From: Chaetoderma sp. LZ-2023a
Taxonomy: Eukaryota; Mollusca; Caudofoveata; Chaetodermatida; Chaetodermatidae
Reading direction: 5' to 3'
Length of the DNA stretch: 64,000 nucleotides
Assembly (NCBI GenBank): GCA_034401795.1
Contig: CM067359.1
Location: 142,792,233 to 142,856,232 of the forward strand
A program made the translations under genes and the position numbers. Of this stretch, positions 1 to 30,625 are shown piece by piece. Below the pieces are notes generated by a model. That model saw nothing but the letters and a program-made list of their open reading frames with translations, was not told the DNA's origin and did not search any database. Each line of letters begins with the position of its first letter. Position 1 is the stretch's first letter.

Positions 1-1
1 G

Positions 2-259
2 GTCCCCCCTCCGTCTGATGCTCAGATACTGGCTGCCATAGAGGAAGGAGCACCAGCTCGTAGTACAAAAGAACTCCTGACTCGGATACTTTACTGGAAG
101 TTTGACAGGACCCAGGGCAGCACACTCGACCTACCTCCTGAGGCCCAAACCAACAGTCCTGTTATTCTAGCTCTCCCAAGGGCGAGGGTCGACCCCAAAG
201 ATCTACTAACGGTCGGGAAGTGGGCTGCCGTATTTAGCCTCCATCGCCAGGAAGAGTGA
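2..259 (+). CDS. Partial ORF, C-terminal 85 residues, unrecognised
   Basis: The frame is open from the left edge to a TGA at 257-259 and is not interrupted. The visible part is mixed polar, with a Pro-rich stretch near its middle and no membrane segment. Its stop lies four bases before the ATG of the next plus-strand ORF at 263, the same tight packing seen through the rest of the block. I do not recognise the family. The start is outside the window. Confidence 0.4.
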   Translation, partial: VPPPSDAQILAAIEEGAPARSTKELLTRILYWKFDRTQGSTLDLPPEAQTNSPVILALPRARVDPKDLLTVGKWAAVFSLHRQEE

Positions 260-262
260 GAT

Positions 263-736
263 ATGCTGGATAGCCTCCAGTCTGGAGCAAATAACTACTT
301 CAGGGAGGAGGTCAGTGCTGCTGTAGCGGAGAGCCATGACACTGGTCATGCAGAAGGTACTCCGGAGGGGTTCACTGTTGGCTGGAAGGAGGCTGTTGAG
401 CACATCTTCAACAAAGAAGGGCGCAGGAGATTGGCCAGTGATCTGGCAGCATTTCTGAAATTCCCAGATAACTACCAGGACTACCTCATCAAATCCACTC
501 GCAGGTCAGATGCTAGTCGCGCATGAAAAAAGTGGATCTTCTGTGAGAAGTTCCAGAAGAAGAGAGCCCTAGACTCTGACCCGCAGTGGGTGGAGTTTAA
601 GCGACAGGCTTCTGACGAAACTGACGAAGTTCCTCAAGCTTCTGATGAAGTTCCTCAAGCTTCTGACGACGGTCCTCAAGCATGTGACGAAGTAGCCGAG
701 ACCACGGACGAAGTTCCTCAGCCTTTCGATGAATGA
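263..736 (+). pseudogene. Broken ORF with acidic C-terminal repeat, unrecognised
   Basis: An ATG at 263 opens a frame of 157 codons ending at a TGA at 734-736. It is interrupted by one in-frame TGA at 524-526 with no frameshift. The first 87 residues are soluble-looking. The part after the stop begins Lys-rich and ends in four or five imperfect acidic repeats of the DEVPQAS type. The break could be a CGA-to-TGA change. The downstream minus-strand ATPase gene ends at 766, so the two genes converge with about 30 bases between them. No family is recognised; an acidic tail is common in virion core or scaffold proteins, but that is only analogy. Confidence 0.45.
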
Positions 737-765
737 AAAAAAGTTGCGGCAGCTGTGACAGTCTT

Positions 766-1428
766 TCAGCGATGACGCATATAGCAGGCTAGTTTCCTTG
801 CTGGATTCAGCTTGTAGGTGAAGGTCTGCATCTTTTCCAGAGATGGCTTGAAATGTGACAGCTCACCTGTCTCCTTGTTGCTGTAGATGATGCGGTACAT
901 CTCAGCTGCCCTCTGTAAACCTGCGATAAAGTCCCCTTTGGTCTCCTTGAGGGTTAAGCTGTCATATATGGTCTCGAGCAGGGCACGTCCACACTTGGAG
1001 CTGAAGCATAGCAACCGGGCATTGTGGCGGATGTCTGGTGAGATCTCATGGGTGGACTTCTGAAAGAGGATGAAGACAGTTATCTTTGTGTGCCAGATGC
1101 ACCTGGTGATGTTGCTGAGGTAAGTGACTGTCTTCTGTTCCATTGCAGGGTCATCGATAACTAGAACAAGTGATTCCGTCAGTTGGGCTGCCAGCAGCTT
1201 CTCCATCAGTGCTTGCAGGTTCTGCATCTTGGTGATTGGGCCATTGTACCATTGATCATTACTGTCAACCTCCTCAGCAGTGGAGTCAGACACCAGAAGG
1301 ATATATTGAGAGTGTAGATGTTCGGCCAGGAGAGCCCGCAGCACGATGTTTTTCCCATGTTCTGACAGGGAAATGATCAGCACTACATGGCCAGCATCAG
1401 CCGGCCTACTGTCGAATGGTACAGACAT
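766..1428 (-). CDS. Packaging-type P-loop ATPase (A32/FtsK-HerA-like), degenerate Walker A
   Basis: An intact ORF of 220 residues, about the usual size for Polinton or adenovirus-like packaging ATPases. A beta-strand plus loop near residues 15-27 reads LIISLSEHGKN: the Walker A Lys is present, but the first Gly is replaced and the final Ser/Thr is Asn. Walker B is the hydrophobic run ending in DD (VLVIDD) near residues 88-94. A strand ending in Gln after VFILF near residue 123 fits the sensor position of this superfamily, followed by a segment like the 'unloaded' resistant region, RHNARLL. The family powers genome packaging into capsids. The start at 1428 lies inside the preceding minus-strand gene, a 23-base overlap. 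The eroded P-loop suggests lost activity. A distant unrelated NTPase is the main alternative. Confidence 0.6.
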   Translation of the reverse strand: MSVPFDSRPADAGHVVLIISLSEHGKNIVLRALLAEHLHSQYILLVSDSTAEEVDSNDQWYNGPITKMQNLQALMEKLLAAQLTESLVLVIDDPAMEQKTVTYLSNITRCIWHTKITVFILFQKSTHEISPDIRHNARLLCFSSKCGRALLETIYDSLTLKETKGDFIAGLQRAAEMYRIIYSNKETGELSHFKPSLEKMQTFTYKLNPARKLACYMRHR

Positions 1429-1684
1429 GCGTGCGGAGGATGGTTAGCACTTGGTCGGTGGTAGCCTCGTCTATATCTGGGAGACTAAACGGCAGTACTT
1501 CCTACACCAGCTCTTTTGCCTGCAGAGCGGGGAATCCTGCACCTCCGGTGGATACAAAGGATACGATGGAGGCGTCAAGCATGAAATCCCAGCAGCAGCT
1601 GAGAAGATAGTGTAGAGGGCCTGTGTCAGCACCCACAGTGTCTAGTACATCCAGTATCTGTATGATACTTGCACGGGAAGCCAT
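1406..1684 (-). pseudogene. Small virus-block ORF with one in-frame stop, unrecognised
   Basis: The frame runs from an ATG at 1684 to a TAG at 1406-1408, about 92 codons, and is split by a TAG at 1502-1504 (possibly from CAG). The first half is amphipathic with a Cys pair; the second half is acidic then basic. Its end overlaps the start of the ATPase gene by 23 bases and its start lies two bases from the end of the next upstream minus gene (stop at 1687). This chain of abutting minus-strand genes argues that it was once real. The product is not recognised. Confidence 0.4.
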
Positions 1685-1686
1685 GA

Positions 1687-2204
1687 CTATCCTGTGGTCT
1701 TAAATGGCAAACCAAATAATCCTGACTTCTTCACCTCTGGTAGCCGCAGTCTGTCGATAGCACCTGCACCTGTTTGGCTGTCGACAGTGATACTGTTTAG
1801 GCTGAGGGTGCCTATCTTGAGATTCTCTCCATCCTGTCGGAATGAGCTACGTGGTTTCAGGAGACCCTCACCAGGTCCTGTGCATAGGACTCAGCCATAA
1901 CCTTGATGGCTCCAGCCTCATCGACTCCGAGAATACCTCACATCGTCGCCCTCTCCTTGATGCCCATCCCCTTGTATACAGTCTTGGCTTTGTTAATGGC
2001 TGATTGTCCTACCGTATCAGTGTTCCCGATGAGATCTCAGGCTGGGATGGTAGCTCGGATCTCCCGCAGGTCTCCCTTCTCATCGAAGTCTAGGAAGGAG
2101 ATAGGGGCAACAGTGCCCTCTGAACCGAGGTGTGCCTCGCCCAAGTGAGCAAGATCACCTAGCGCTTTGCTTTCTAGGTCTGTGAGTGACAGAGTCATAG
2201 TCAT
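1687..2204 (-). pseudogene. Virus-block gene of about 170 codons with two stops and a frameshift
   Basis: A minus-strand ATG at 2204 opens a frame with in-frame TGA codons at 2037-2039 and 1938-1940, then a one-base shift near 1862-1866. After it the reading stays coherent to a TAG at 1687-1689. The predicted parts are acidic and soluble near the N-terminus, with a Lys-rich middle and a mixed C-terminus. None of it appears as a long ORF, so it is easily missed. It fills exactly the space between the genes ending at 2225 and starting at 1684. I do not recognise the product; a minor virion protein is possible but unsupported. Confidence 0.45.
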
Positions 2205-2224
2205 ATACAGATGGCTTACACCTA

Positions 2225-2449
2225 CTAGTCATACCCCCAGTGAAACAGTTGGGCATAGGAGGACCACGCAGTCGGCCAAGGGACTAGGCAGCAGTGCTCT
2301 GGGTACTGGCCCTCTCTGCAGGGGCACACCTTGTAGGCGGTCCACCATTCCCGGGCATTGGCGATCCTCAGTCCACATGCTTGACTATGGGCTACACACC
2401 GCCCTCCAGCACACCATGCCTCATATGCTGCGCAGGTCTCGTTATCCAT
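2225..2449 (-). CDS. Small Cys/Trp-rich protein, 74 residues
   Basis: An intact ORF between two other minus-strand genes, 20 bases after the stop at 2469 and 20 bases before the ATG at 2204. It has eight Cys in the first two-thirds, including a closely spaced CPC near residue 43 and a CC pair near residue 53. It is rich in Trp and Tyr, with no clear signal peptide. The spacing and intactness support a real gene. Whether the Cys bind metal or form disulphides cannot be told, and the family is not recognised. Confidence 0.35.
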   Translation of the reverse strand: MDNETCAAYEAWCAGGRCVAHSQACGLRIANAREWWTAYKVCPCREGQYPEHCCLVPWPTAWSSYAQLFHWGYD

Positions 2450-2468
2450 CTCTCACTATTCAGAGGGG

Positions 2469-2988
2469 TTAAACATAGGCGACGATGATCTCAGCCATTG
2501 CACTCATTGCTAGCCCTGGAACAGCGGCCTCCATTAGTGTGACACGTTCACCCATGATCTTGGCAGCAACAGTGTAGGAGGCACCACTGAGGGCGATCTT
2601 TGGGATGGGGTGAGTTATTCTGAGACAGTGCCCGGCCACCCCACTCACCACTGTAGCGAGGACAGCCGCAGTGGCGGCAGGAAGAACCTCATTTCCTCCT
2701 GTCATCTTCACCACAGCCACATTCGCCGCCACGTTACTGGCGACATGGACTGCCAGAGGTTTTGCTTTGGTCAGTATCTTCTGTGTCTTGGTTCGCAGCA
2801 GGTTCTCCACCTTTTGAAGACTCGCCTGGCTCTCGGGCAGTTGCTTCACGATCTGTACCGTTGACATCCTTGTTTAAGCACTGAGTATACAACACGGTTA
2901 AAAGTCTGCATCCCCTGTCGAGAGAGCTAATAGGATCTTCCCAGTCTGCATCTGCCAGGTAGCGGGGTTGGTACTCAGGAATATTCAT
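2469..2988 (-). pseudogene. Ala/Val-rich membrane-type protein, N-terminus in a second frame
   Basis: An ORF of 132 codons starts at an ATG at 2867 and ends at 2469. After a Lys-rich stretch it is strongly Ala/Val/Gly-rich from about residue 45 to the end, giving two or three possible membrane segments. A second frame starting at an ATG at 2988 gives 41 plausible residues and meets the first frame exactly at its ATG. Either this is one gene of about 172 codons broken by a one-base shift at about 2866, or two genes overlap. A minus-strand start at 2988 and a plus-strand ATG at 3025 leave only 36 bases for a divergent promoter. Confidence 0.4.
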
Positions 2989-3024
2989 CTCTCTATTGAG
3001 ACATCTTAAACATTGTCCGGGCTC

Positions 3025-3510
3025 ATGATATGCGAGAAGTACTATGATGTCTTCCGGAGGGATTTTAAGGACTACAAGAAGAAGACACCAGATGAGCTCG
3101 CTCAGCTCTCCAGTGCTGAGCTGACAGAGGAGCTGACAGCTGTGAAGCTCTATCTAGGATTTGGTAAGGGACAGATCTGCTTCATCGAATACATTATCAT
3201 GGGCGGGAGTATGGTCGAGAAGCTCCTGCGAGCTAAAGGTTTCTACAAGGATCGGGAGTATCTGTCAGATGTGTTCCAGCAGTTGCATACCACCATGACC
3301 TCACCGGACTCAGAGCTGAACAAGGCTCTGCGATACTACAAGCTGGAAAAAGGATGTGCTGCCGAACCCTCCAGCCCTTGGATGTGCATGTTGGCAGCGG
3401 GTCTAGGGGATGTAGGGAATGCCAAGCTGGTTCAGTGTCTCACTGTGGTCCCCACTGCTACTGTAGAGAGTCAGGATAGGCTTATAGCTGATTTGCTAGC
3501 GGCGGAGTAG
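3025..3510 (+). CDS. Alpha-helical protein of about 161 residues, unrecognised
   Basis: An intact ORF. The first in-frame ATG is at 3025, so that is the start chosen. The N-terminal third is charged and helical, with YKKKTPDELAQLSS followed by Glu-rich helices. The middle holds a conserved-looking GFGKGQICFIEYII stretch and the C-terminal third is more hydrophobic. There is no signal peptide. It is one of the few unbroken genes here. Its 3' end overlaps the converging minus-strand gene at 3496 by 15 bases. The family is not recognised. Confidence 0.45.
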   Translation: MICEKYYDVFRRDFKDYKKKTPDELAQLSSAELTEELTAVKLYLGFGKGQICFIEYIIMGGSMVEKLLRAKGFYKDREYLSDVFQQLHTTMTSPDSELNKALRYYKLEKGCAAEPSSPWMCMLAAGLGDVGNAKLVQCLTVVPTATVESQDRLIADLLAAE

Positions 3511-4762
3511 GCTGATCCCGAGCGCCACGATAGCTAGGCCTGACACCACACATAGAGCTACCATGGGAAGCGGTGTCGTGTCGACTGGCTGCAATGTCGG
3601 GGTGCCTGAAGCTGCCATGTCGACTGGCTGCAGTGTCAGGGTCAGAACGACTGTATGGCTCATACTACGCGTCGTTGCATTGATGGCTGTGTTGAAGCTG
3701 AAGTGGAGACTGGGGGAACTCCCTTCGGCTATCATGTTGTTATAGCCCCTGACTTGGAGGTCCTTGATGTCCACGATCATGCTGCTCGGAATCAACCATA
3801 GGTGTGGCGAAATAGCAAAGTCAAGTTTGTGATGGGCCTTCTGTAACCCCTGCGGGAACTTAGCAATAAGACTACTGGTGTCTGCCACGATGATCATATC
3901 CTCAACGAGACTGATGAACATGGCCTGGACCTCTGCTCCGCTGACACCATCTATGGAATGCCGCAGCTGGGTCTGTGCCGTAAGGAGGCAGTAGCACAGT
4001 GCTTCCAGGGACTGGTTGATCCGAACACTCCCTGCTAGTGTGAGGCCTGAGGTGGTGTGTGGGACAAAGTCCTGCCGCAAGCCAGTGATGTGCATATTTT
4101 GCACCAGTGCTCCAGGGTCAGAGTCTGGATCGAACAAGAATGTCACTGTCTTCCGCCGGCCTACTCGTCGGGGGTTTCGATAGTGGAATCCTGAGTAGTC
4201 ATGTCTCGGGTCACCATATATAAACCCTAGACTGCTGTTGTCACCACCATGCCACCGATAGTCTGGGTGAGTGCTGAACTCTCTCTCTGTAGTCTGCTGG
4301 CCGATGATGACTGTTGAGCTGTGGGTCGAAGGCGTTTGTATCAGGGAGGCTTGCTCCCAGCTCATGGAGGATTCGTCGCACCGTGAAGTACACTTGGAAT
4401 CTGAGACAGCTGGTGATGAGCACAGTTTCAGGAGTACCAGAATAGGAGTGAAGCAGGGTGGAACTTACTCCACATCCTGCCGTGGCACACCACGCGGCAA
4501 AGTTCAGCTGTTGATTCCAGCATGAAGGGGTTGGAGCAGCCATCCAAGTATGAGCTTGCTTCGCATCCTTGATGGTGATGGGGCGGTTGGTCAGTGGTCA
4601 TGGGTTGACAGAGAAGCTGGTTCGGGACTGTCCATCCACTGTGATGGAGAACGGTGTTAGCTCTGGTATATCATCCAGTAGACCTCTCAGGCCAGTCAAG
4701 GGTGTACCCATGAGGGGTGGTTGGCTCCGGATAACTGCCATGAGGTTCAGTGGGAAGGCCAT
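3496..4762 (-). pseudogene. About 420-residue protein with C-terminal membrane anchor, broken; candidate capsid or surface protein
   Basis: A minus-strand frame starts at an ATG at 4762 and is cut by a TGA at 4598-4600. It resumes through a Cys-containing stretch (AAWCATAGCGVSS), shifts by one base near 4260-4340, then runs open to 3496. The last part (from 4365, 289 codons) is intact. It contains an Asp/Gly/Tyr-rich region, a helical region around LLTAQTQLRHSIDG and a GYNN motif, and ends in a hydrophobic segment followed by LLRR, a tail anchor. It is the longest gene of the block. I have an unverified impression that multi-copy uncharacterised proteins of cnidarians and molluscs share this layout. 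A virion surface or capsid-linked role is inference only. The pieces are described separately and not rejoined here. Confidence 0.45.
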
Positions 4763-4816
4763 CTATACTGGTGTTCTTAAAGCTACCATACAGGCAGCAC
4801 ACTATTTGTAGTCGTA

Positions 4817-5428
4817 TCAACTCCAGAGACCAGCGAGGCGACCTCGCCATAACATCTCATTTTTTAACTCCTCCATATCAACCCACCCGCTGGAGCCTTT
4901 GAGGTATTGCTGTCGCACTTTAGGTTTCTCCGTGCGGTACAGGGCTTGGACCTTCAATATATGGTGGTACTCTTCATCGGTGACCTGGCCATCCTCGAGA
5001 GCTTTGCTGACAGACTCGTCGATAGTCTGTAGCATTCTCTGTGCCAGTGCCACGTACTTAGCATGCTTCTCCAGCCTCCTTGTGATCTGCCGCTGCCCCA
5101 CCCCCAAGCCCGTGGCCAAGACAGTGGCAGCTAGTGTCACGCCACCCAGCTTGATGGCGACGATGGCCCCAACCCATGTAGCGAGAGTGGCCACAGCTGC
5201 CACCCCAGCACTGGCTCCAATCATACCCGCAGCAGTGGTTGTACGCGCGAAGACGTTTTAGGCTGTCTTATATCACCTGCACATTCTGCTGTACGTTTCT
5301 GCCTCATGGCCGAGATTCTGTCTGATGGTATCTATCTGCTTGAGTCGCCAGCAATGGATGGTACCGCCCTCGTCAGCCATCAGGGAGGTGTATATTTCTG
5401 GTTGCTTCCGCCACTCTGATTTTGCCAT
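4817..5428 (-). pseudogene. 204-codon protein with Gly/Ala membrane hairpin and 'TDEEY' helical domain, two in-frame stops
   Basis: One continuous minus-strand frame from an ATG at 5428 to a stop at 4817, interrupted by a TGA at 5273-5275 and a TAA at 5258-5260 with no frameshift. The N-terminal 50 residues are polar and charged. A Gly/Ala/Val-rich stretch near residues 69-105 looks like two closely spaced membrane helices, followed by an Arg/Lys cluster. A helical C-terminus carries SKALEDGQVTDEEYHHIL, superficially like an EF-hand or helix-turn-helix edge. Similar proteins with a Gly/Ala hairpin followed by such a motif seem to be multi-copy in invertebrate genomes, but that is my unverified recollection. 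The stops fit CGA and CAA codons hit by C-to-T changes. Confidence 0.5.
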
Positions 5429-5442
5429 AGTATACCTGGAGA

Positions 5443-5984
5443 TTAAACCTGCATCACCTGCAGAATCTGCTCATGAGTCCTAGAAGGGTACATTTTGGAG
5501 AGCCTAGCGAACTGTGCCAGCTTGCTGGTTTCTAGACAGACATCTCTTAGACAGAGGTCATCCAGCACTATGTCGGGTGCCAGTAGCTTTCTGAGACCTG
5601 ACATCTGGAACTTCACCTTATGACCAAGATAGTAGGTCCGCCGCTGGATGGCTTTCTTGGTCTTACACATCTGCACCATCTCCTCTTCCCACTGGATGAC
5701 ATCTGGCTCATCCTCATCTGTGAAGACACCTGGCTCATCGTCATATGTGAAGACATCTGGCTCATCGTCCCGCTTACTCTCTGGCTCATCCTCGTCCGCG
5801 GTCTCCGCTGCATCGTCCGCCGTCTCTGCTACATCTGGCTCATCATCGTATGTGAAGACATCATCCCGCATACTCTCCTCCAGGGGGGCCTACCAGTATT
5901 GGGAACCTTCACTGTTCCTTCACCTCCTTGCAAGGCTTGCGTTCTGTTGATACGAGCTCTCCTGCTGTAGTCACTCTCCTTCAT
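5443..5984 (-). pseudogene. Acidic Asp/Glu-repeat protein, frameshift in a poly-C run
   Basis: The intact part (from an ATG at 5871, 142 codons) starts with about 55 residues of repeated acidic units such as FTYDDEP and ADEDEP, followed by a basic, helical C-terminal domain (KKAIQRR, LRKLLAPDIVLDD). An upstream frame from an ATG at 5984 supplies about 35 Arg/Gly-rich residues and joins it by a one-base change in the C-run at 5886-5890. The ATG at 5984 overlaps the end of the small gene before it by 14 bases. The acidic/basic layout would fit a DNA- or capsid-associated protein, but no family is recognised. Confidence 0.4.
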
Positions 5985-6105
5985 GTTGCAGTGCGAGCAT
6001 TTGTTTGTTTACGGCCTTTATCTGTGCAGGGGTCATGAAAGGGCAACCCTGTATCAGGCTCTTCATCATCTCGGCAAAGGTCAGATATTCCTGGTGTGAT
6101 ATCAT
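5971..6105 (-). CDS. 44-residue small protein between overlapping genes
   Basis: An intact short ORF from an ATG at 6105 to a TGA at 5971-5973, below usual length cut-offs. Its ATG shares the bases ATGA with the stop of the upstream gene (6102-6104), and its end overlaps the next ATG at 5984 by 14 bases. It is Met- and Gln-rich and helical in character, with no membrane segment. The exact 4-base junction and the absence of stops are the only support. The function is unknown. Confidence 0.35.
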   Translation of the reverse strand: MISHQEYLTFAEMMKSLIQGCPFMTPAQIKAVNKQMLALQHEGE

Positions 6106-6484
6106 GTTTTCGTCAGGTCAATGAGTAATAAGAGTGTAAACTCTAAATGGGCGTCCGATATCCCATCCGTGCTGCCATATATGTTAATGGAGGGGCTGTC
6201 AAACAGGTGATTTACAGGTGTGAACAGGCTAGGACTGATAGCTTTCCATAGGTTGCTGTTGGCACCTGGGAGATACTCTATCACGTCCCGGCTGACTTCT
6301 ACCAGTGAGCTGCTGTGTGCACTGCCCGGAGGTTGATGTAGCACATCGGCGTGTATGTATGTTGTGCCCCGCTGGTGCACCTCGAAGAGGACCCATCTAC
6401 ACGGTACTGTACCACCTGTCTCCCCTCTAGAGATGGTGAGATTACGTTCTCACCACCGGAGAGCAGCAGTCAGACAATCGGCAT
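6102..6484 (-). pseudogene. Virus-block gene of about 127 codons, one stop and one frameshift
   Basis: A minus-strand ATG at 6484 is followed after four codons by a TGA at 6470-6472. The same frame stays open to about 6390, then a one-base shift leads into a 92-codon frame ending at 6102. The product looks like a mixed beta protein with a His/Gly-rich segment (YIHADVLHQPPG) and a hydrophobic Leu run near the C-terminus. Its start faces the plus-strand gene at 6523 with 38 bases between the two ATGs, a second divergent promoter in this block. The family is not recognised. Confidence 0.4.
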
Positions 6485-6522
6485 GGTTATATGTCTTATT
6501 TAAACTCCTCCTATAGCGTGCT

Positions 6523-7325
6523 ATGGAACCCATATTTGCTCACTCGACTGGTCTTGCTGACCTGGCAGATGTGTACGCAGTTGATTCTGCCAAGGTAGAA
6601 GAGAGCGATGGCAAGTCATTCGCCCTACAGTACGAAGCAAGCTCAAAGGCATTCACCCTCCACCCCATTGGTGGTGATGGGGTGGAGCTGCTCACAGACC
6701 TCAAGGATGAGACGAACGAGTGCCTGGGTTGCAACATAGATGGCCACAACATCGTGTTTCTGTACGATTTCCCGAAGAGGAAGTACATCCTCGAGCCATT
6801 GATTGAGCTCTCGGATACAGAGGTGGCAGACATCAACACCCTAAATAACGACCTCAGCTTTCATCTGGTCAAACCCTATTCGAGCGGTGCCCTGCCAATG
6901 GACCATGATGGCCTGCTATTGACCTGGCCCTATATAGGCCTCCCGCAGTCATTGACATAGAGGTTACTCCCCTCTCCACTGTTTTGAAAAAGGATGGGAC
7001 AGTTCGAAAGCTCTACAATCGGGGATCATCCTTCCACACCTACATAGGTGAAGGTGCCTCCCTGACGAGGGTGGGTCACCGGATCGGGGTTACAGGTGGA
7101 AAGCTCCTGCTGCATCGTCCATTCGATGGACCAGAAGAAGCTGTTAACCTCCAGGAGGGCACCCTACGGGTAGATGCTTTGTCACATGTCTCCAAAGTCA
7201 AGGGTGCTGTTAAACTGCTTCAGCGAGTCAGACTCACTAGCCCGCAAATGACTCATATAGTCCTAGAGCTACGTTTCTTAGCCGGCGGCAGAGTGAAGCA
7301 ACTAGCCCCGCCCCTGAGGGGATGA
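6523..7325 (+). pseudogene. About 267-residue soluble protein, one frameshift
   Basis: An ATG at 6523 opens 145 intact codons of acidic, beta-rich sequence. Near 6920-6940 a one-base shift leads into a second plus-strand frame that is already open before 6960 and ends at a TGA at 7323-7325. The two parts are coherent and no other ORF competes. The C-terminal part is Lys/Arg/Gly-rich with repeated hydrophobic strands. Its stop shares the bases ATGA with the ATG of the next small ORF at 7322. Size and composition would suit a structural virion protein, but I recognise no family. Confidence 0.4.
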
Positions 7326-7417
7326 AGATCACTATAGATTCGGATGGAACAGGGCTCGATCTGGCACAGATATTTCTCGAGGGGTTCACTCTGTTCAGTT
7401 TAACTCTTCATATATAG
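7322..7417 (+). CDS. 31-residue peptide ORF
   Basis: A very short intact ORF whose ATG overlaps the preceding TGA (ATGA at 7322-7325) and which ends two bases before the ATG of the next ORF at 7420. It may be a real mini-gene, or the decayed remains of the junction between its neighbours. Only its position supports it. Confidence 0.2.
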   Translation: MKITIDSDGTGLDLAQIFLEGFTLFSLTLHI

Positions 7418-7419
7418 CA

Positions 7420-7818
7420 ATGATTCTCATCATACTGCTCGTGCTGGCGTCTACAGCAGTGGCACAGGGCACTGAGACTGCCATGATATTTGATGCCAAG
7501 TGAGCCCACTTCCTGGATGACCCCCAGTACAATCCTTGGGTCGACCCCTTACAGAGAAACATTTACGACCGCTTTCACCTACGTGATCTGTCTGCCACTT
7601 CCATGGGGTGGAGAGGGTAGGCTGTTGTTGTCTGCTGGAGACCCCTGCTCAGCACCAGATTTCTCTGCGTAACATGTGAACATGCCAGAGTCTGCCGTTG
7701 TTCACATGCTAATTACTTTAGCCTCCTCCCAGGTGAGCATTGTCAAGGTAGATGGAAGCCCCCATGGGTGGTCCCATCATGTCGATGCGACTCTGGAAGA
7801 GACTACGTGTTTGTCTGA
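7420..7818 (+). pseudogene. Secreted/membrane-type Cys-rich protein with signal peptide, two in-frame stops
   Basis: An ATG at 7420 starts a textbook signal peptide: a hydrophobic Ile/Leu run followed by ASTAVAQG, with likely cleavage after Ala at residue 15. The frame is cut by a TGA at 7501-7503 and a TAG at 7618-7620 but stays open otherwise to 7816-7818. The part after the second stop has about nine Cys, several in CxxC or CxC pairs, then becomes disordered. A secreted or envelope-type protein is plausible. Downstream of it the coding signal stops, so it marks the right edge of the block. Confidence 0.35.
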
Positions 7819-8239
7819 GCCTACACAGAATAGAGAGAGAGAGAGAGGCCGGCCCTGTGGTTGATGGCGATCAGTGGTGTATATCACTGTGGAGGCTTGT
7901 CTCTAAATGGGCGTTCAACCCCTGGTAGTAGTAGTGTCGGGATGATCCTACCTCCCTGGCAGCCGTTCGGCGATCCGTGGTGGCCCCCGCAAACTATGCC
8001 CCAGGGATTGAGAGGGCGGTGTGGGCTCATTTGTCAAAATGGAAATCCAGTTGAGGGAGTTGGGGGCTCATTGGTTTAAATGGAAATCCAGTTGAGGGAG
8101 GTGGTATCATTTTAATTCCGACACTACTACTACTCTTAGTATATCGTCATACACGATCCAGTCCCATCTTTTATGAGAGAAAGTTGCATGCTCTTTAGCG
8201 ACATGTCTAACTTCACTGTTCATCTTTAATATATAAGTC
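7819..8239. repeat. Inverted repeat and 42-bp tandem duplication at the right edge of the virus-like block
   Basis: No gene is seen. Arms at 7925-7955 and 8096-8137 are inverted copies (core GTAGTAGTAGTGTCGG, 16 of 16 matching) enclosing about 140 bases. Inside, a GGCTCATT...TTGAGGGAG unit of about 40 bases occurs twice (about 8023-8059 and 8064-8100). This could be the terminal or subterminal structure of the element to the left. It could also be an unrelated short foldback repeat. Confidence 0.4.
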
Positions 8240-8510
8240 TTAAAGGTGCATAGTCACACAAAATGCTTGAAAATAAAATTGATAAATTTGTACACTTTTA
8301 GAGGCTTACATTGTGTATCTAAATGTAAGGAAACGAAAAAAAATCTTAGCATATAATCATTTCATTTCATGGAAATTATTATATTTTTTTATCATCATAT
8401 GTTAAAATTTATTTCGTTTCCTTGCATCCAGGCACATAATTTACACCTCTAAAATTATATAATTTAACAATTTTATATTCAAGCATTTTGGTGTGAATAT
8501 GCACCTTTAA
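8240..8510. repeat. Foldback MITE with TTAA ends, copy 1
   Basis: Long imperfect inverted arms of about 115 bp, starting TTAAAGGTGCATA on the left and ending TATGCACCTTTAA on the right, with an AT-rich loop. TTAA is present at both outer ends (8240-8243 and 8507-8510), as expected for a TTAA target-site duplication. Two related copies lie at about 40845-41098 and 41181-41538, so this is a dispersed family. It has no coding capacity. A piggyBac-type transposase is the likely mobiliser, but that is inference from TTAA only. Confidence 0.65.
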
Positions 8511-8588
8511 ATGTATTAAATCTACTGGAATGTTCAAACCATTCTTGACAATCGATTTTTTTTAACATTAAACACTTTGGACCTGATA

Positions 8589-9195
<607 letters not shown>

Positions 9196-9346
9196 ACGTC
9201 TCCCTTCTCTTATCACAGAGAATATACGGATATTGTAGCATTAGCTTCGAAAAGCAGCATTGTCATCAGTTGATAGACGGTAAGTTCTGAATGTTCATCT
9301 ATCCTAACCGAACATTCAAACAGGCATCTATTGTGACAGATAATTT

Positions 9347-9924
9347 TTATGATTTGATTTGTAGGTCAGCTTTAGTCCCATCAAAATCTGGAATATCTTT
9401 CACTTTATGATCGCCATGGAATATGCATAGTGTTACTTCCGTTTCATCATACATATATCGGGTGTTCCAGTAACGGCTGCTAAACCATGCAATGAAGCCA
9501 GATGCTACTGTAATAATACAGAAACAGTACTTCATCATCAGTGCACAGGTGACTCTACTTCTGACTGATAAGGGACATGTCATTTGATACAATCTCAATG
9601 CGGCAAAGAACACGAGACGGTACTCACTAGCATACGCACCAATGCCCCAGAGAAAACCAATTAAAGTGCAAAGGAACTGAACGTCAGGAAACGTCACAGT
9701 TGGGAGTAGAAACGCAGCGAATCCGGCAGTAGTCAAACAAGTGAGCATATCCATTATCGCCAAGCTGGTTAGTATTGTGAATATTAGTGATCTGTATTGC
9801 TTGGATATGATAAAATACACGATTATCATTAAATTCGTTACCATGCCCATAAGAAAGCACACGATTGGCAGCTCAATACATGCTTAATTGAGCTCGAATT
9901 TGTGACGTTAACTCTTTCCATCAT
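9347..9924 (-). pseudogene. Rhodopsin-type (class A) GPCR fragment, TM1-TM4, with a frameshift
   Basis: The minus-strand frame ending at 9347 encodes four membrane helices. TM1 contains the GxxxN-like MGMVTN. TM2 carries LAIMD, matching the conserved LAxxD. A Cys before TM3 is present. The end of TM3 reads LRLYQMTCPL where DRY...P is usual, so the DRY motif is degenerate. TM4 follows, then a loop rich in charged residues and a stop. Upstream, a short frame from ATGs at 9919-9924 encodes an N-terminus with N-glycosylation sequons (NVTNSS) and needs a one-base shift near 9880-9895 to join TM1. TM5-7 are missing, so this is a retained exon or a truncated pseudogene. The ligand cannot be told. 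Confidence 0.55.
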
Positions 9925-10163
9925 CGCATCTACACTAAATACACAGGCATCTGTATGCATATGTGAAACAAAGAACCGAACAGTCTTTAATTGGTCTGAG
10001 TCGTGGTAACTGATTAGCAAATTATAGACAAAGTTTATACAGTGGATCATTGGACTGATAGGCATCTTCAATGCATAGTACAACCATTATTTGATGTTCT
10101 TTTAGCAACTCTATCTGTTATCGAATGTTGCTATTTAACAAGGCTTTTCACTATTCATCACGG
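9925..10163. other. Short unassigned stretch before the LTR element
   Basis: No gene, repeat or clear regulatory site recognised. It ends at the first base of the 5' LTR at 10164. Confidence 0.5.
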
Positions 10164-11374
10164 TGTAGATATGGGACTGTCTTGTGGGGAGGTCATGACC
10201 CCATTGGACATCTTATATGTACGAGGAGTAAGCCCGAGCACAATTCTTGTTTGGATACCAGGTGAGCTAAGAGACTATGTCACTGTGTATATTTAGATGC
10301 ACTGATCATCGTCTAGAGCATCTTATTATTTGGATATATATTATCAGCACTGGATGACTGGCAGCAGATACGTCAGCTAGTGCAGGTACAGTTTCGCCGA
10401 AACTGAATCGAGCATAAAAGATAATGGTTGGCACCAGGTTGGAATCAATCAAGGGATTAGATATAACAAACGGACGTAGTTAGAGGAGCATAAAAGATAA
10501 TGGTTGGCACCAGGTTGGAATCAATCAAGTATTAGATATAACAAACGGACGTAGTTAGAGACGTAGCGGTCTGTGTTCCCACTGAAGCGTGGGACCAGAT
10601 AAGCCGAGAATAACCCGGCTATGAGGAATGGTAACTCGTGTGCCGATTAACTCTAGCATTCTACAAGTTGTCGACTAATAGGCGATGAACATGACATGGA
10701 CATTGTAGCATCCTGTAGGCGGTAGGTACACAATCGAAAGTTATGTTAAAAAACATCAATTGTAGAGGCGTGCTAGGACACAATCGAAAGTTATTATCAA
10801 AAACATATAAATCGAGAGGTGTGCTAATCCACCAGCAAGCCTTGGTATCAAACCAGCATTCGTCATTTTGGGCAGGTCATTCGTCAGGAATGACATGGGA
10901 AGCCAGCTGGAATTCTAAAATACAGTTAGGGGAACGACAGATCCCATCACTCAAGAACCAGCCAAACCGCAGGTGCTAGGTACAAAGCACCCTCCCGGGG
11001 GCGGGGGGGGGGAGGGTCTGGGTCTTGATTGGTCAAAATGATGTCATAATCCAATGAGAATCAGAGCAACCTCCGGCGGTGCGAAACCAAGATGGAGGGA
11101 GAATAGAAACTGAGATAGTACATAAGGGGGACTTTAACTTTAATCGAGAGTTCGGTCCGCCTCGCACCTTGTGAAACTCTTGCTGAATGGTTTTAAGTAG
11201 GCAAGAGCTGGTCAAAGTGGGAAGCTTAGGAAACATTGAATTGTAATATTTAATGCTTGTGAATAGATCGCTAGGTAACAGTAAAAGTTACCAACTTTGT
11301 AGGTGTATTGTATGGTTAAAGTTAGCAAGTAAAACGATCACCTTGTGATATATACAAGGCAAAAGTTTGTCACA
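10164..11374 (+). repeat. 5' LTR
   Basis: About 1.21 kb, TG...CA ended. It matches 19456-20596. Inside is a direct duplication of a unit of about 75 bp (GAGCATAAAAGATAATGGTT... at about 10410 and 10486) and a second short duplication around ACACAATCGAAAGTTAT (about 10731 and 10777). A G/C-rich run lies at about 10993-11015. The primer-binding site should follow 11374, but I could not assign a tRNA to it. Confidence 0.85.
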
Positions 11375-11667
11375 TATTTGTTGTTATTCTGGAGAACACG
11401 GAAGACCACCATGTCGAACCAATAATACTGAAGCGCGCAGTTAGATCAGGCCCAGGCACTAATATAAATATCGTCAGGTCTCTGTACCTACGAGGCGAGC
11501 TAGTGTCACGCTCCATCTTCATCGGTGGAACCGGTTGTCGCAGCAACCATCCGTACAAGGTTTCATCGAATGGGGTAGAGCACACGTCATCAACAAGGGT
11601 AGACAACCCGAAATCTTCATTGGCGAGCCTGCCAGGATTCAGAGTGACAACAGTGGGTAGATAAGAT
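11375..11667 (+). other. 5' leader of the gypsy element
   Basis: Sequence between the 5' LTR and the first gag frame. No intact ORF on the plus strand. A 166-codon minus-strand ORF overlapping here is a shadow. Confidence 0.5.
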
Positions 11668-13158
11668 ATGGCCCAACCAGAAACACCGCTAACTAATTCA
11701 GCCATTGTACTGACCGACGTCACTGCCCGTGTACAAGCATTTATAAATGCTGCAAAGTTGTCAGAGAGCACCCGTATCATACAGCATCGTGAGTATCGCG
11801 TGGGTGCTACCGTGAAAGTAACCACAGAGGTAGTTTGCCCCGAGCAACCCCTTTTGCAGAGAGTGATCATAGCTTTACATTACCAGTGAAGATAGCATGA
11901 CAACGGGACCCAAGAGAACCGCTGACCCAGCTATGCCACCCATAGAAGTACCAGTAGCACACCAGCTTCGACCGGAAACCATCGCCGTGATGCAAACGAT
12001 GGGCATAGCGATGGCGGGGGCCATCGTCGACAACAGCAACCGTCGGGAGGCCGAGTGGGTATACCGCCGAGAGATCAGAGACACGATTTACCACATTCAG
12101 CCCTGCGACGGAGTGGTACCGGAGGAGGTACGAAATTTTTTGGACAAAACACGAAGAGCGTGGGTCGCAAACGAGGGGAGACTAGAGGGCATACCAGCCT
12201 ATGTCATCACCTGAGCTGCACGCGGCCAGCTATCAAGAGCCATTGACGGGTTTTTGATAGGCAAAGTCCGAGTTCTACAAATACATCACCGTAAACTTCG
12301 TATCAGCCAATGAAGGCGAACGCATCAAATACGGAAACGAAACCGTCATCACCTTCAACAGGCAGTTTAGAGAGATGAGCACTCAGGCATACCCTACGGA
12401 GAACGCCGACAACCGTCGGACCGTGTTAGGAATATACCTCAAGGGGTTGACCGACCACCGCCTCAGCAAGAGGATTGTACGAAAGAAGGCCAATACATTG
12501 GCCAGGGCGATCGAAATTGCAGAGGAGGAGGCTACATGTGATGACCTGCTCCGGGCGATGAAGATCGAGGATCGCCAGGAAGAGAATATGGAAGTGAATA
12601 TGTTAGGACCAGACGAGGAAAAAGAGATCTGGGGCATGGTGGGAACATTGAAAAAAACAGATTGCTCAACAGAGCAAGATGATTGAGTGACTCTGTGGCT
12701 TGGCCAGTGACATGCAGCTACAGCAGCAGAAGCCGGTGGCTGGGGCCACCCAGCCCATGAAGAAGACAGCCCTGCAGGCAAAGCAACGCGCCCCACCCTC
12801 GCCCCGACCTGTCAGAATGGGACGAGACTTGCAGCACATTACCTGCTATAATTGTGGCCGAGTCGGCCATTACAAAAGTGACTGTCGTCAAGCGGTACAG
12901 CCGAGGGAGAACGTCAGCAGACAGGCTGCCCAGCGACCCCGACAACCGCGACGGGTGCCGCCGATGACCTGTTCCCAGTGCGGGAGAGAAGGACACATGG
13001 CCCAGAATTGTTTTGGGGCATATATGAACCGGCAGACGACTCCTGCCGTAACGGTAAAGTGTTTTGGGTGTGGAAAGGATGGACATTTCATTCGGGACTG
13101 CCCAAAGAATGGACAGGCAGTAAGAGAGGGGCCACCAACTGGTCCCGCATGGGCCTGA
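11668..13158 (+). pseudogene. gag: gag-like gene with three CCHC zinc knuckles, several frameshifts
   Basis: Coding continuity passes through at least four plus-strand frames: 11668-11889, 11897-12214, about 12261-12686 and about 12700-13158. The early parts give a matrix/capsid-like helical protein. The last part has three CCHC knuckles, CYNCGRVGHYKSDC, CSQCGREGHMAQNC and CFGCGKDGHFIRDC, in a Gln/Arg/Pro-rich context typical of nucleocapsid. The product would package the element's RNA. The spacer 13159-13476 stays weakly coding in another frame (acidic, Ser/Asp-rich). At least three frame breaks show that it is dead. Confidence 0.8.
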
Positions 13159-13476
13159 TCAGGGGGTCCGCCAGCCCGATGCATGATCAAGCATCCTCGA
13201 TGATGATCTCGACATTGACGTCATCGACCGACGACAGCAGGAAAGAACCATCACACCACGCGACTGTTCCAGGAATGTCAGAAAAGACTTGAACAATCGT
13301 TTAAGAAGTAATGATGAATATGAAGACCGCGACAGTTTTGTGTTGACCGGTGAGGGGACGGATGAAATGGGCCGTTATTCATACGGTGTCCGACACAATT
13401 CATCCTCCTGCCAGAACAGCTATGCAGAAGTGGTTAGTGGACGGAGGAGTCCGTCAAACGACGACGGAGGAAACCG

Positions 13477-16400
13477 TTGGTGAATTCACCGACCGAGCGG
13501 TTTCTAATCCATCTGAAAATAGATAAAAACGGTCCAACGGATCAGGGTGAGTACTTGCATGCCTTAGTGGATACTGGTGCTAGTACATCCTTCATTCGCA
13601 AGGATATATGGCGTAGCATGTTGAATGCTAGGCCATTGAAAAGGGCGAAGACGCTCTTGGCAGTAAATGGTTCCCCGATAGAAATTTTGGGGGAGACCCA
13701 AGTAAAATTCAATAATGCCCAACCTATTCCAAGTACGGTAGTAGCGAGAATGAGGCATGAATGTTTGCTTGGAGCGGATGCTTTGCACTTGGGAAGTGCG
13801 AAGATTGACTATCAGGCCAAAGTTGTAGTATGGTTTGGCCAGATATATCCCTTTAGGTATCCCTATAGGGAACAGACAAATTATGTGTATGAGAGTTGTA
13901 AAGAAACGACCGGATATAAGGCTATCGACAAAGTGCTTGAGGACTTTGCAGATAACTTTGATACGGCTCGTCCAAACACTTTAGGATTGGTCCCCAAAGT
14001 GAAGTGTAAGGTACCAACAGGAGATGCGTTTCCTATAAGGCAGAAAGCCTACCGTCTACCGCTTGCCAAGCAGTATGTAGTCAAGAATCAAGTGGCTGAA
14101 ATGCTGGCAGTGGGCGTCATAAGACCATCGTCGTCACCCTGGGCGTCTCCCATTACGTTAGTGCCCAAGAAGGATGGGGACACGAGATTTTGTGTTGACT
14201 ACAGGAAGTTGAATTATGTATGTCGTAAAGACAGTTATCCATTACCAAGTATAACAGATATTTTTTACTCGATGCGTGGCGCAATGATATTTTCGACTAT
14301 GGACTTGAAGTCTGGCTATTGGCAGATACCAATGGACAGCCAAGACATAGAGAAGACAGCATTCGTCTGCAGTGAAGGTTTGTTCGAATGGATTCGGATG
14401 CCTTTTGGTTTTTGCAACTCAGGTGCCGTATTTCACAGGGCAATGAACGATATTTTCCGAGAATTCGTGTGAAAATATTTGCATGTTTTTGGCGATGATG
14501 TAGTTGTATATTCAAGAAATCCGGCTGAGCATGCACAGCATTTGCGTAAGGTTATGCGTAGGATTCGAGAATACAATTTACAGGTTAAGAAAAAGAAATG
14601 CGAGTTTGCCCGCAAGTCTGTGGACTTGTTGGGGTATCGTGTTTCGGCACAAGGAGTGGCTCCTCAGGTTCAGAAGGTCAAGGTCATAAGAGAGATGTCA
14701 CCGCCATGCGACGTGGGGGAGGTGAGAAGTTTTCTTGGAGCTACAGGTTATTACCGCTCTTGTGTGCAAGGCTATGCTGAAATTGCTAAGCCTTTGATCG
14801 AGTTAACTAAGAAATATAAACGTTTTGAATGGGGTAAGGAGGAACAGCAAGCGTTTAAGAAATTACAAAACTTGCTGTACAGTGAGACGGTTCTCACCTA
14901 TCCAAATCTAAATGCTCCTTATAAGCTTTATACTGATGCGTCTAGCTATGCGATAGGTGCAATATTGGTACAGGTGGATGGTAAGGGTGTGGAAAGAGTA
15001 ATACAGTATGTAAGCTCTACTCTGAAGGACAGTCAGCTAAACTGGCCTGTAATAGAAAAGGAAGCTTATGCTGTGATCTATGCATTGAAGAAGCTTAGGC
15101 CTTATCTATTTGGTGCGCGGTTCACCATGTATACTGACCACAAACCCCTAAAGAGTTTGTTTGTGGGAGAAGTTAAGAACACGAAAGTACAGCCCTGGGC
15201 GGTGGTGATTGCCGAGTACAGATGTAAGATTGAATACATCCAAGGCGCGAAGAATATTCGAGCGGACATGTTGTCCAGGTTACGTCATCCAGTGGAGATC
15301 GCCACCTTAGACACAGGCGATTTTGTCATAGCGGATGTGGATGAGGGTGCGTTACCGCATGTCCCTCTCGAGGTATTCGACATTCCCTACGACGAGTTGT
15401 GTGCCGAGCAGACCAAGGAATACCCGGAGTTGTTCAAGAACACCCCGGAGGAGTATATGGTCAAGAACGGTATTTTATATTCTTTAATTACGCCTTCAGC
15501 GTTGGACGCTGAGTACCCCAGAATCATGTTACTTACCCTGTTCCATGAGAAAGTGCTCCGGATGGCTCACGAACGAGCTGGTCACCAAGGTCTGCAGAAG
15601 ACCATCGGTAAGGTAAGAGATTCGTTTGTATGGACATCTTTAAGGAAAGACGTGGTACGTATGCTAGAGACGTGTACGACGTGCCAGGTCAACCGACCCG
15701 TCACTACCCGACCAAGGTACAGTGAGATGCCCATGGCTAATTATCCTAGTCAGATAATCGGCATGGATTTGATAGGTCCACTGTTAGAGTCGAGTAAAGG
15801 TAATGTGTATATCATGATGGTGATCGATCACTGTTCTGCGTGGGCAGAGGCATATCCGATTCCTGCTAAGACGTCTCAAAATGTTGAAGACAAGTTCTTC
15901 AACGAGTACGTCGCTCGTCATGGTGTCCCGGAGATCGTGATAACGGATCAGGGGAAGGAGTTTTGTTCTAAGTCGCCAGAAGAGCGGTTTAGAGAACATG
16001 GGATCGACCATAGAAGATCGAGTCCCTTCCACCCACAAACCAATGGGCGTACCGAGAGATTCAATCAGACCCTTAAGGACTTAATCCAAAAAGGGATTAA
16101 CAATGCTTCTCGCACGTGGGAGGATGAATTGGGTGCGGTGTTAACCGCGTATCGCAGTACTCGTCATTCCACGACAGGATATACGCCATTTTATCTGACC
16201 TACGGTCGACGGGCAAGACTGCCGTTTGCTATTCCAGTAGACGCATCGCAGGATCTGGGTGAGAGACTGACCTGTCTCAACAATGCCCTACTGCGCACTC
16301 GTATGGAAACGGCTAGGTCTCATGAGATCCACTGTGAGCAGATTGACAAGCGTGCAAACGCTGGTGTATTTAAGGTGGGTGATTCAGTGGTCGTAAAGGC

Positions 16401-16644
16401 GGAGGAACGCATGAAGTTGACCTCTCACAGTGACCCCGAATATGAGATCTTTAAGATCAATGGGCCAGTGGCTCATGTCCGGCATCAAAGGTCTGGGAAG
16501 GTGCGCATACTGAATATATCTAAGTTATGCGTAGTCGACTCAGAAATGTGCTGGGACAAGGTACAGCCACGCCCTGTTCGTAACCCTGCAAAGGGTACGA
16601 AAGACAGCCATCATCCAAGGGTGGTGATGCTCCCAAGGTCCTAA
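13477..16644 (+). pseudogene. pol: pol: aspartic protease, reverse transcriptase, RNase H, integrase; one in-frame stop
   Basis: A single frame with one TGA at 14470-14472 just before the RT active site. In order: protease with LVDTGAS (about residue 30); RT with typical VKNQVAEML, VPKKDGDTRFCVDYRKLN and STMDLKSGYWQI; RT catalytic box VFGDD instead of the usual YxDD; RNase H with YTDASS, EKEAY and TDHKPL; integrase HHCC zinc domain (HERAGH, CTTC); DDE core with GMDLIGPL, VITDQGKEF and NGRTERFNQTLKDL; and a C-terminal GPY/F-like region. No ATG lies near the start, as expected for a gag-pol fusion product. After the TAA at 16642-16644 the same frame stays open to 17061. Confidence 0.92.
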
Positions 16645-17061
16645 GAAGGGCCAGAATCCGACCCTAAGGCAACCCTTGGTAAGAGAGCTCGTAGGATGCG
16701 ACCAGCTTCTGATGATGAGCCGAGGGTGAGCAAGTGGGGTAGGATGGTTGATAATAACATCAGTCAACCTGTTACGAGTGAGACTCGAAACCATGAGTCA
16801 CCAATGGAAACTCACATGACTCCTCCACCGGTAGTGATGGGCAGTTCGGAGGAGGTACCCAAGAGTGTGCCAGAACCAATGAAAATGCTGCCAGTGCCAC
16901 GCTACTTTATGCGCAAGCGCAGTCACGTTCATGATGTCGAGTCTGACAGCAAGAGACTCAGGATTGGCGCGTTCGGCCGCGCCCTGTACGATGACTTCAT
17001 CAATCATATAGAGGCAGTTATAAGGCGATGTAGCCGCCACTCATTATCCTTCTGTCTATGA
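16645..17061 (+). other. In-frame open extension of pol after a TAA
   Basis: Directly after the pol TAA the same frame is open for 138 codons, including an ATG at 16696. The sequence is polar, Pro/Ser/Glu-rich, with a Lys/Arg cluster near the end. It may be the C-terminal tail of integrase cut by a nonsense change, or a spacer that happens to be open. No domain is recognised. Confidence 0.4.
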
Positions 17062-17088
17062 TTTGTAAACATCGCAGGGTGTGGAATC

Positions 17089-18981
17089 ATGTATATTTTA
17101 CGATTAGGTGTGGTGGTAGCTCTAGTGAGTTTAGTAAATGGACTGTGTAAAAAGTCTAGTGTACATAGATTACCGAACGGGGTAATGATAACTAACCCCG
17201 AGGATATATCTGTTATCAGGGCTGAATGGACCGTAGTGGTGTCTATCGACCACCCTTATTTGCCTGCCAAATTTCTTGAACGGTTAGTGCAATTTCGTGT
17301 TCTTATTGCAGACATCGGTCAAAAGACTTCGTTGAACAATCAAGACATTTTCGGTTTGCAACATCGTGTTAACAATATTAAAAAGATCGCTGTTAGGACA
17401 CAACAAACTATGGTGAGTAGGGACAGTATACGACGCAAACGTGGCTTATTTGACTTTGTCGGGGACAAAGCCTCGTCTCTATTCGGTACCGCTACCTCTG
17501 GTGATATAGATGCAATTAAAGAGGTAGTCAAAGTTGCTTTGAGCGACGTGAATCGTTTGGTACATTTCTCCAACAAACTAGCGTCCCACGTGAAACTGGC
17601 ATTCGTAGGGATCAATACCAACGTTGACCGTATCAACGAAATTACCGCTGGCCTAGTGGAATTAACTAGAAATGTGAGCGATATGTTTAAGTTGCACGCC
17701 GCCTGACAAGCCGACTTATACGCATTAGTGCGACTTGGACACATTATTGACTCTGCCGAAAGTGTGGTGTATAGCTACCAGAAGGCAGCAGCACAGTTTC
17801 ATAGACAAACTGCCTCCCTAGAGTTAGGAAGACTAACCAAGGAAATATTCGGTCCCGCCGATCTGACATCGGTATCGAAACATGTCAGAGTGGGGAATCA
17901 GCTGATATGTCCGTACCAGTGGTACTACCGGAATGTGGTAGTTTACCCGTTGTGGAAGAACGATGATATGTTGCACTACATAGCGATGTTACCGTTGATT
18001 GACGATGGCAATTATATAGAGTACGGTCTGCATTCGTGGCCCGAACTGTTGGCCACCGTGGGGTATTACGTGCAAGTAGAGTTAGGCCGGACTAGCATCG
18101 GTCTCGATACGAAGACTGGATGGTACTTCACAGCGTCTGGGTGTCGCGGTACCAGTCCTAGCGTGTGTGTATCAGGGACAGTTAAGGGTCGATAAGACCC
18201 ACGTGCCCTGCATAGTAAGCCTATTAACGAACACCACCGATAGTACGTGTAGCGTTCGTCTGTCGGAATCCAATGTAACCGCTAGTAAATTGTTCGCCCA
18301 TAAGAAAATAGGCATTGTGTTGCAAACATTCGGTGAAACAGTGGATATACACTGCGATGGACGACTGACCGACCAGTGTGTGGTGAGTAATGGAGTGTAT
18401 GCATTAATGTCTGGTGAATGTGGTTATAGCGGGAAAGGCTGGCAATTCGAGCCTGTTGCGTCTTACAGTAGGACGTACACTCGGGTTGAGATGCCCCATT
18501 TGGATGTGGTCGGAGTTCTGAACCAGTCCATGGTTGTGAATCACTTGAAGATGTAACCCTGGAACCATTTACAAAAATCCAGGTACGTGCCACTAGCACC
18601 GCTATCTGCGATCGACCCAGTGATGTCGATGGCATTGGAGTACGCTCTTTCGTATCATATGTGACGGGCTCCTCCGTTGTAGTAATTATTGTGATATTTA
18701 TCTTATATAAATGTGGCGTTCTACAATGCATGTGGACTTGGATCAAATGCAAGCCACCTGCGGCCCATAGTAGTGCGCCACGTCAGATTCATCCTCCGCC
18801 CCTGCCGGGAACTGCAGCCCTGCCGGTAATGGTGGAGATGTTGGCCGGGTCGTTGCCTAACGCTATTGCCAGGACTGAGATCGACCCGACGGCTGACCAC
18901 TGGATTGACATGGAGCTGTATGATGACATTGGTGAACCTCCTAACGTGGATCTTGGTGACCGATTAGAATCATCCCAATGA
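17089..18981 (+). pseudogene. env: env-like F-type envelope glycoprotein, one in-frame stop and two frameshifts
   Basis: An ATG at 17089 starts a signal peptide (ILRLGVVVALVSLVNG). A furin-type site RRKR followed by a fusion-peptide-like GLFDFVG occurs near residues 117-127, the hallmark of baculovirus-F/errantivirus-type class I envelopes. A helical stretch after it fits the heptad region. The frame is cut by a TGA at 17704-17706, shifts near 18165-18195 and again near 18540-18560. The middle is Cys-rich with N-glycosylation sites, and a membrane helix lies at about 18664-18705, followed by a Pro-rich cytoplasmic tail ending at 18981. All these breaks make it non-functional. The pieces are described only as they stand. 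Confidence 0.8.
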
Positions 18982-24640: not shown

Positions 24641-24750
24641 TTCCTAGTACCACATTTATTACTACAACTATCGTCCCTGCCATTTGTACTAATACAGCTA
24701 TTGCTGCTGGTGTCTCTAGAGGTACAGCAGTTGGTGGAGAAAGTAATGAA

Positions 24751-27235: not shown

Positions 27236-27238
27236 TAT

Positions 27239-30578: not shown

Positions 30579-30625
30579 AGCCCAGATAATACCAAGTTGT
30601 TGATAACAAACACTCTACCAAAAAT

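Follow-up and report, generated by a model that had tools for sequence, protein, structure and literature searches.

A dispersed element in the genome of Chaetoderma sp. LZ-2023a, very probably a decayed Polinton/Maverick-like DNA virus or transposon

The stretch analysed here, called the window throughout, comprises 64,000 nucleotides of the Chaetoderma sp. LZ-2023a genome (G000:C1:142792233-142856232), and the genome searches covered the 2.44-Gb assembly of 2,753 contigs. We found that the first 8,131 bp of the window belong to an interspersed repeat with many dispersed copies, and that this block very probably belongs to an endogenous DNA virus or transposon of Polinton/Maverick-like type, here in a decayed copy. 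It works like a Polinton/Maverick, judging by its polymerase, integrase, termini and size, and is best called a Maverick-like variant with 5-bp target-site duplications, unrecognised capsid and protease and an uncharacterised virion-type module; it is not filed as a strict Maverick because its duplications are not of 6 bp and its capsid and protease are unrecognised. The original prediction, made on the window, had proposed that the block might be the structural half of a Polinton, which was essentially right: polymerase, integrase and left terminus lie left of the window, but a capsid candidate lies there too. The other proposal, a lineage that the usual Polinton searches miss, may also apply: capsid and protease genes were not recognised, and one conserved protein family did not turn up in the virus collections searched. 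Polymerase and integrase had seemed absent because the window begins inside the block. Both are encoded within 8.2 kb left of it, and the leftward extension that had been advised, into the adjoining 10 kb (L009), recovered polymerase, integrase and terminal repeats.

The left terminus (L009:1842) and the right terminus (window 8131) are inverted copies of each other at 42 of 43 bases (97.7% over 43 bp), which gives an element of 16,290 bp: 8,159 bp (L009:1842-10000) precede the window, and window 1-8131 makes up the remainder. The block had been thought to end at 7818; matches at other right ends and the terminus itself carry it to 8131. When the genome was searched with window 7600-8200 and the best 40 of 2,753 first-look candidates were scored, all 39 non-self matches stopped at query positions 530-545, which is window 8129-8144 (a 16-bp span). 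The 31-base terminus was present with at most 5 mismatches in 20 of 20 loci fetched, the window included, with different DNA beyond it. In the window copy, ACTCT stands directly before the left end and directly after the right end as a 5-bp target-site duplication, and exact 5-bp duplications (ACTTG, TGTTG and GGAGT) flank three further copies, whose ends were fetched separately. All four copies examined start with AGTAGT and end with ACTACT. By end coordinates the three further copies measure 16,368, 16,154 and 16,877 bp, and the unit length across the four is 16.15-16.88 kb. As PMC8097293 describes them, vertebrate Mavericks most commonly have the end motif (AGT)2//(ACT)2, with 6-bp duplications and a mean size of 16,862 bp. 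Two types of terminus were seen, AGTAGTAGTGTCGG at window 8101-8131 and AGTAGTATAGCCGGG in three other copies (L037-L042), which suggests subfamilies. The region between the pieces of the left-end inverted repeat (L009:1885-2960) has a lower GC content and a microsatellite, and is perhaps a later insertion into the window copy.

A family-B DNA polymerase (PolB) is encoded on the plus strand, its best piece being L009:5282-6688 (Pfam DNA_pol_B_2, 5.8e-9, 35.8 bits against a curated cut-off of 25.8), and an rve integrase at L009:7151-7696 on the minus strand (Pfam rve, 2.8e-8, 34.4 against a cut-off of 32.6). The integrase of a second copy (L014:499-1494) is also above the cut-off (rve, 5.5e-8), and for this 332-aa protein Pfam gave rve and a sub-threshold TipAS match, and no chromodomain. 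The N-terminal frames of the polymerase (L009:3237-3758, 3762-4091, 4003-4248 and 4352-4930), which are broken here, had no Pfam match; in adintoviruses an N-terminal OTU-like domain marks PolB. Just before the polymerase frames, a 56-aa frame that ends at a stop (L009:3146-3313, plus strand) matches Pfam Rho_N above the cut-off (1.2e-7), and may represent the opening domain of the polymerase gene, severed from the rest. Among the scanned frames only the polymerase, the integrase and this Rho_N-type frame reached the curated Pfam cut-off, and strong matches of most genes to unrelated host families, which had been named as an outcome that would overturn the viral reading, did not appear.

The block genes co-occur in other copies within the same genome. 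Three stretches around ATPase copies that are 99-100% identical to P0001 (L014-L016) align at 88-89% to window 8-5742, and also to window 6100-6509 (76-87%) and to L009 from 6196-6769 to 10000 (84-89%). The gene order is the same in all three, and therefore is not due to chance. Read from left to right in the orientation of the window, the frames of L014 encode the integrase (332 aa, minus), proteins of 93 (minus), 143 (minus), 124 (plus), 411 (minus) and 291 aa (plus), the ATPase (220 aa, minus), and proteins of 92 (minus), 167 (minus), 133 (minus), 158 (plus), 431 (minus) and 206 aa (minus); the integrase frame has 206 aa in L015 and 291 aa in L016, where it lies at the edge of the stretch. 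Neighbouring frames of L014 overlap by 9-20 bp (INT/p93, p124/p411, ATPase/p92 and p158/p431), so that the gene overlaps first reported are real, and the close packing of short frames on both strands holds over window 1-8131. Several of the about 16 genes first counted are pieces of broken genes (2-733, 4762-3496 and 4817-5428). The window copy is decayed: its 291-aa, 92-aa, 167-aa, 431-aa and 206-aa genes are broken, and its ATPase, 132-aa and 161-aa frames are open. Of the membrane and acidic proteins predicted, there are hydrophobic frames at 2469-2867 and 4817-5224 and an acidic one at 5443-5871, together with a Cys-rich one at 2225-2449. GC content in 2-kb windows is 0.51-0.53 within 1-8000, 0.40-0.45 in 7001-12000 and higher again further right. 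The features of the window copy are listed below.

1-8131, no strand: right-hand 8.1 kb of the 16,290-bp element, by the inverted termini at L009:1842 and window 8131 and by other right ends
2-733, plus strand: 3' part of a gene of 289-291 aa in three other copies, with two in-frame stops (pieces 2-256, 260-523 and 527-733), ending in an acidic 7-aa repeat
766-1428, minus strand: P-loop protein, probable packaging ATPase, 220 aa, open, P0001 being 90% identical
1502-1684, minus strand: 60-aa piece of a gene whose full 92-aa frame, in three other copies, runs into the start of the ATPase gene
1690-2204, minus strand: broken gene (pieces 1690-1890 and 2037-2204), 167 aa in two other copies and 113 in the third (L016)
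2225-2449, minus strand: Cys-rich 74-aa frame with a sub-threshold Ldl_recept_a match (0.033)
2469-2867, minus strand: hydrophobic 132-aa protein, open, 133 aa in three copies
3025-3510, plus strand: 161-aa protein (158 aa in three copies), open; it overlaps the end of the gene that follows
3496-4762, minus strand: 424-aa-family gene with an in-frame stop and a frame change, open at 429-431 aa in three copies
4817-5428, minus strand: broken 206-aa gene with a hydrophobic stretch (pieces 4817-5224 and 5273-5428), 206 aa in three copies
5443-5871, minus strand: acidic 142-aa frame with repeats
6523-7322, plus strand: two overlapping open frames of the window copy (6523-6957 and 6909-7322), perhaps one broken gene
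7420-7500, plus strand: short open frame, putatively signal-peptide-like
7871-7921, minus strand: subterminal inverted repeat, 88% over 52 columns to L009:3099-3149 inverted
8089-8131, minus strand: right terminal inverted repeat ending in ACTACTACT, 97.7% to L009:1842-1884 inverted

The acidic 7-aa (21-nt) repeat varies in copy number between copies of the element (window 620-733; L015 and L016 at about 3850-4240 in window orientation).

Numbers of first-look candidates are not copy numbers. For the gene at 4762-3496 there are at least 41 matches in the genome including itself (40 scored, the best of 4,353 first-look candidates), and the other listed copies are 85-91% identical to the window. 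For the ATPase the best 150 of 7,105 candidates were scored and 139 of these 150 are stop-free, a share biased upward by the choice of the best-ranked. Some dispersed copies hold near-identical open ATPase genes, and ATPase and 424-aa-family genes stand close together, as in the window, at C11:173.46 Mb and C12:58.35 Mb. At G000:C2:90076032-90089251 five ATPase matches follow one another at a regular spacing of about 3.12-3.15 kb; here a piece of the element that carries the ATPase is tandemly repeated. Copies of the 424-aa-family gene in L003, L004 and L006, on three chromosomes, are 98.7-99.4% identical with frame breaks in common; such broken copies seem to have spread, perhaps with help from intact ones.

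The packaging-type ATPase of the original prediction stood as a 220-aa P-loop protein at 766-1428, with its strand corrected to minus, and its product is a probable packaging ATPase by sequence. P0001 matched PHROG_2666 (terminase large subunit) at 1.1e-5 over residues 3-196. In Pfam it matched AAA_33 (1.4e-4), nSTAND_NTPase5 (1.7e-4), AAA_16 (1.3e-3) and Pox_A32 (1.6e-3), each under its curated cut-off, so that a packaging ATPase would not be singled out by Pfam alone. In the protein, LVLVIDD resembles a Walker B motif and a glutamine follows a later strand, and both features fit the A32/FtsK group. In the window copy the nucleotide-binding loop is probably damaged, because SLSEHGKN replaces the Walker A motif APSGHGKN of P0001 and of an identical genome copy.

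By size and look, the capsid candidate is the gene of 377-435 aa, whose protein appears beta-rich from its sequence. It is open in L014 (2583-3815, 411 aa) and L016 (435 aa); in L015 the frame (377 aa) begins 79 residues downstream and extends beyond the position where the others stop, and the window-copy counterpart at about L009:9990-8736 is broken. This candidate had no Pfam match, PHROG matches of 0.17 at best, and no convincing PDB match by sequence. Of the 72 Polintons in the 2014 survey (PMC4028283), 46 carried the major capsid gene in full and 13 carried it split (59 of 72 together), and nine capsid-less elements had neither protease nor ATPase; an ATPase without a recognisable capsid is therefore the less usual combination. 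Divergence is the simplest reason for it, and Buck and others (PMC11071296) report elements in animals whose virion genes have been exchanged or cannot be recognised.

The gene at 4762-3496 belongs to what we call the 424-aa family. Two of its pieces matched P0002 at 47% and 50% identity, and the N-terminal 54-residue piece had no significant match in the same search; MAFP opens the frame at 4762 and also occurs at residue 27 of P0002. A profile search of metagenome proteins (E <= 10, best 7,993 candidates scored) gave at least 100 members including P0002, the weakest among the matches listed at 7.7e-6. Many of the 100 listed members are fragments of less than 250 aa, and 28 of them have a longest contig of over 100 kb, with a maximum of 4.3 Mb, lengths that point to assembled eukaryotic chromosomes. 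An alignment of 56 of the listed members has nine invariant positions, several within the QLNFAVWCATAGCG block, and 44 of the 56 carry a hydrophobic stretch in their last 45 residues. Pfam and PHROGs gave only stray weak matches to the family, PDB nothing convincing by sequence, and the IMG/VR scan no confirmed relative. An AlphaFold model of the family (predicted local distance difference test, pLDDT, 84.3; predicted template modelling score, pTM, 0.81) is mainly helical, its last helix spanning residues 392-423, and at E <= 0.001 none of 57 PDB and none of 91 BFVD structure matches was significant. A jelly roll was ruled out by the modelled secondary structure, and a prokaryotic origin was rejected, as a scan of GTDB genomes confirmed no relative. 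Eight members (P0003, P0004, P0006, P0007, P0010, P0014, P0020 and P0026) have longer N-termini (533-599 aa in total), perhaps a second domain.

Eight copies of the 424-aa-family gene have 43, 40 and 41 single-copy changes at the three codon positions, an even spread that is as expected of decay after insertion. Among L014-L016 the ratio of non-synonymous to synonymous differences (pN/pS) was 0.32 for the ATPase (12 changes, three pairs summed), 0.47 for the 411-aa and 0.63 for the 431-aa gene, and 1.02 and 1.43 for two small genes, values that rest on few changes in three copies.

From these genes we propose that the polymerase would copy the linear element, probably by protein priming as in Polintons, that the integrase would insert it with a 5-bp stagger, and that the P-loop ATPase would pump the DNA into a particle whose parts are encoded by the small genes of the block; the 377-435-aa protein would be the candidate capsid, and the 424-aa-family protein might be a membrane protein, anchored by its tail, in the particle or at its assembly site. 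Several points weigh against this Polinton/Maverick-like reading. The target-site duplication is exactly 5 bp in four of four copies, and 6 bp fails in each. No capsid, penton or adenain-type protease was recognised by sequence among the scanned frames (Pfam, PHROGs, PDB); a match of one of the 56 aligned family members to Sputnik_MCP_1st (E 0.1) is too weak to use, and scans of IMG/VR confirmed no relative. Besides falling under the Pfam cut-offs, the ATPase scores better with general NTPase models than with Pox_A32, and its structure model, built from two sequences, was unusable (pLDDT 41). We infer that the element forms particles and is a virus in that sense. Mavericks are held to be old animal viruses whose particles were never observed, by the account of PMC8097293.

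Within the Polinton/Maverick-like reading, and overlapping with it in probability, the element could be an adintovirus proper with virion proteins too diverged for the libraries searched, which is possible although somewhat unlikely. Adintoviruses, as described in PMC11071296, infect animals and encode PolB, integrase, hexon, penton, adenain and a packaging ATPase; their replication and integration genes are the same as here, and in that description their virion proteins vary widely and some membrane-active core proteins have holin-like hydrophobic domains. The same source defines them by hexons mutually recognisable by BLASTp and an integrase with a C-terminal chromodomain, whereas the largest virion-type frames in the stretches read have 377-435 aa and Pfam places no chromodomain on the 332-aa integrase. 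A Polinton without a virion, that is a plain transposon whose small genes help it to replicate or to persist in the cell, is unlikely. Some of the 72 surveyed Polintons have no capsid gene (PMC4028283), and near-identical broken copies of the 424-aa-family gene (L003, L004, L006) lie on three chromosomes; however, the nine capsid-less elements of that survey also had no protease or ATPase, here most of the best-scored ATPases are stop-free (139 of 150, a biased share), and pN/pS, from few changes in three copies, is 0.32 for the ATPase and 0.47 for the 411-aa gene. That few genes match named families would suit a host gene cluster or a chance run of frames, but exact inverted termini with a target-site duplication, dispersed copies, a viral/organellar-type polymerase and an rve integrase leave this next to no probability; a host cluster is rejected by termini, duplication and copy number. 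A retroelement was likewise rejected, the scanned frames having no reverse transcriptase.

Elsewhere in the window, a Ty3/Gypsy-like element occupies 12261-18981 on the plus strand, with gag (CCHC) and pol frames. The frame after them contains RRKRGLFDFVGDKASSLFGTAT, which resembles the cleavage site plus fusion peptide found in F-type envelope proteins. Regions that look, by their frames, like LINE-type reverse transcriptases lie at about 24700-27980 (plus) and 29199-34445 (minus).

Many dispersed copies come together in this genome with an insertion stagger other than that of vertebrate Mavericks, and with a protein family of at least 100 members that is unnamed in the libraries searched. 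We offer as a speculative proposal, itself doubtful, a Maverick-like lineage in which the usual virion parts are replaced and the particle or assembly site is built around the tail-anchored, mostly helical 424-aa-family protein, with a fold absent from solved and viral structures; it would occur in many eukaryotic, probably animal, genomes, and would have been missed since database searches start from hexon and penton. If the family does mark a Maverick branch, it gives a handle for finding such viruses where capsid-gene searches fail, and its hydrophobic tail would be a direct prediction about the particles.

Compared with Polintons/Mavericks as described in PMC8097293 and PMC4028283, the element shares PolB, the rve integrase, the P-loop ATPase, genes on both strands, (AGT)2//(ACT)2 termini, inverted repeats and a size of 16-17 kb; it differs in its 5-bp instead of 6-bp duplication, in the unrecognised capsid, penton and protease, and in the conserved 424-aa family, for which no match was found. 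Integrase and ATPase are on one strand here and the polymerase on the other, whereas polymerase and ATPase share a module in vertebrate Mavericks. With adintoviruses and other meldviruses, as portrayed in PMC11071296, it has in common PolB, integrase and, as the probable assignment here, a packaging ATPase, along with small virion genes that vary greatly, but here no hexon, penton, adenain, Pfam chromodomain or confirmed IMG/VR relative was recognised. Polinton-like viruses (PLVs) resemble it in a packaging ATPase of the A32/FtsK kind, which is the probable assignment here. According to PMC11071308, PLVs are mostly without protein-primed PolB (pPolB) and rve integrase, whereas both are present in this element.

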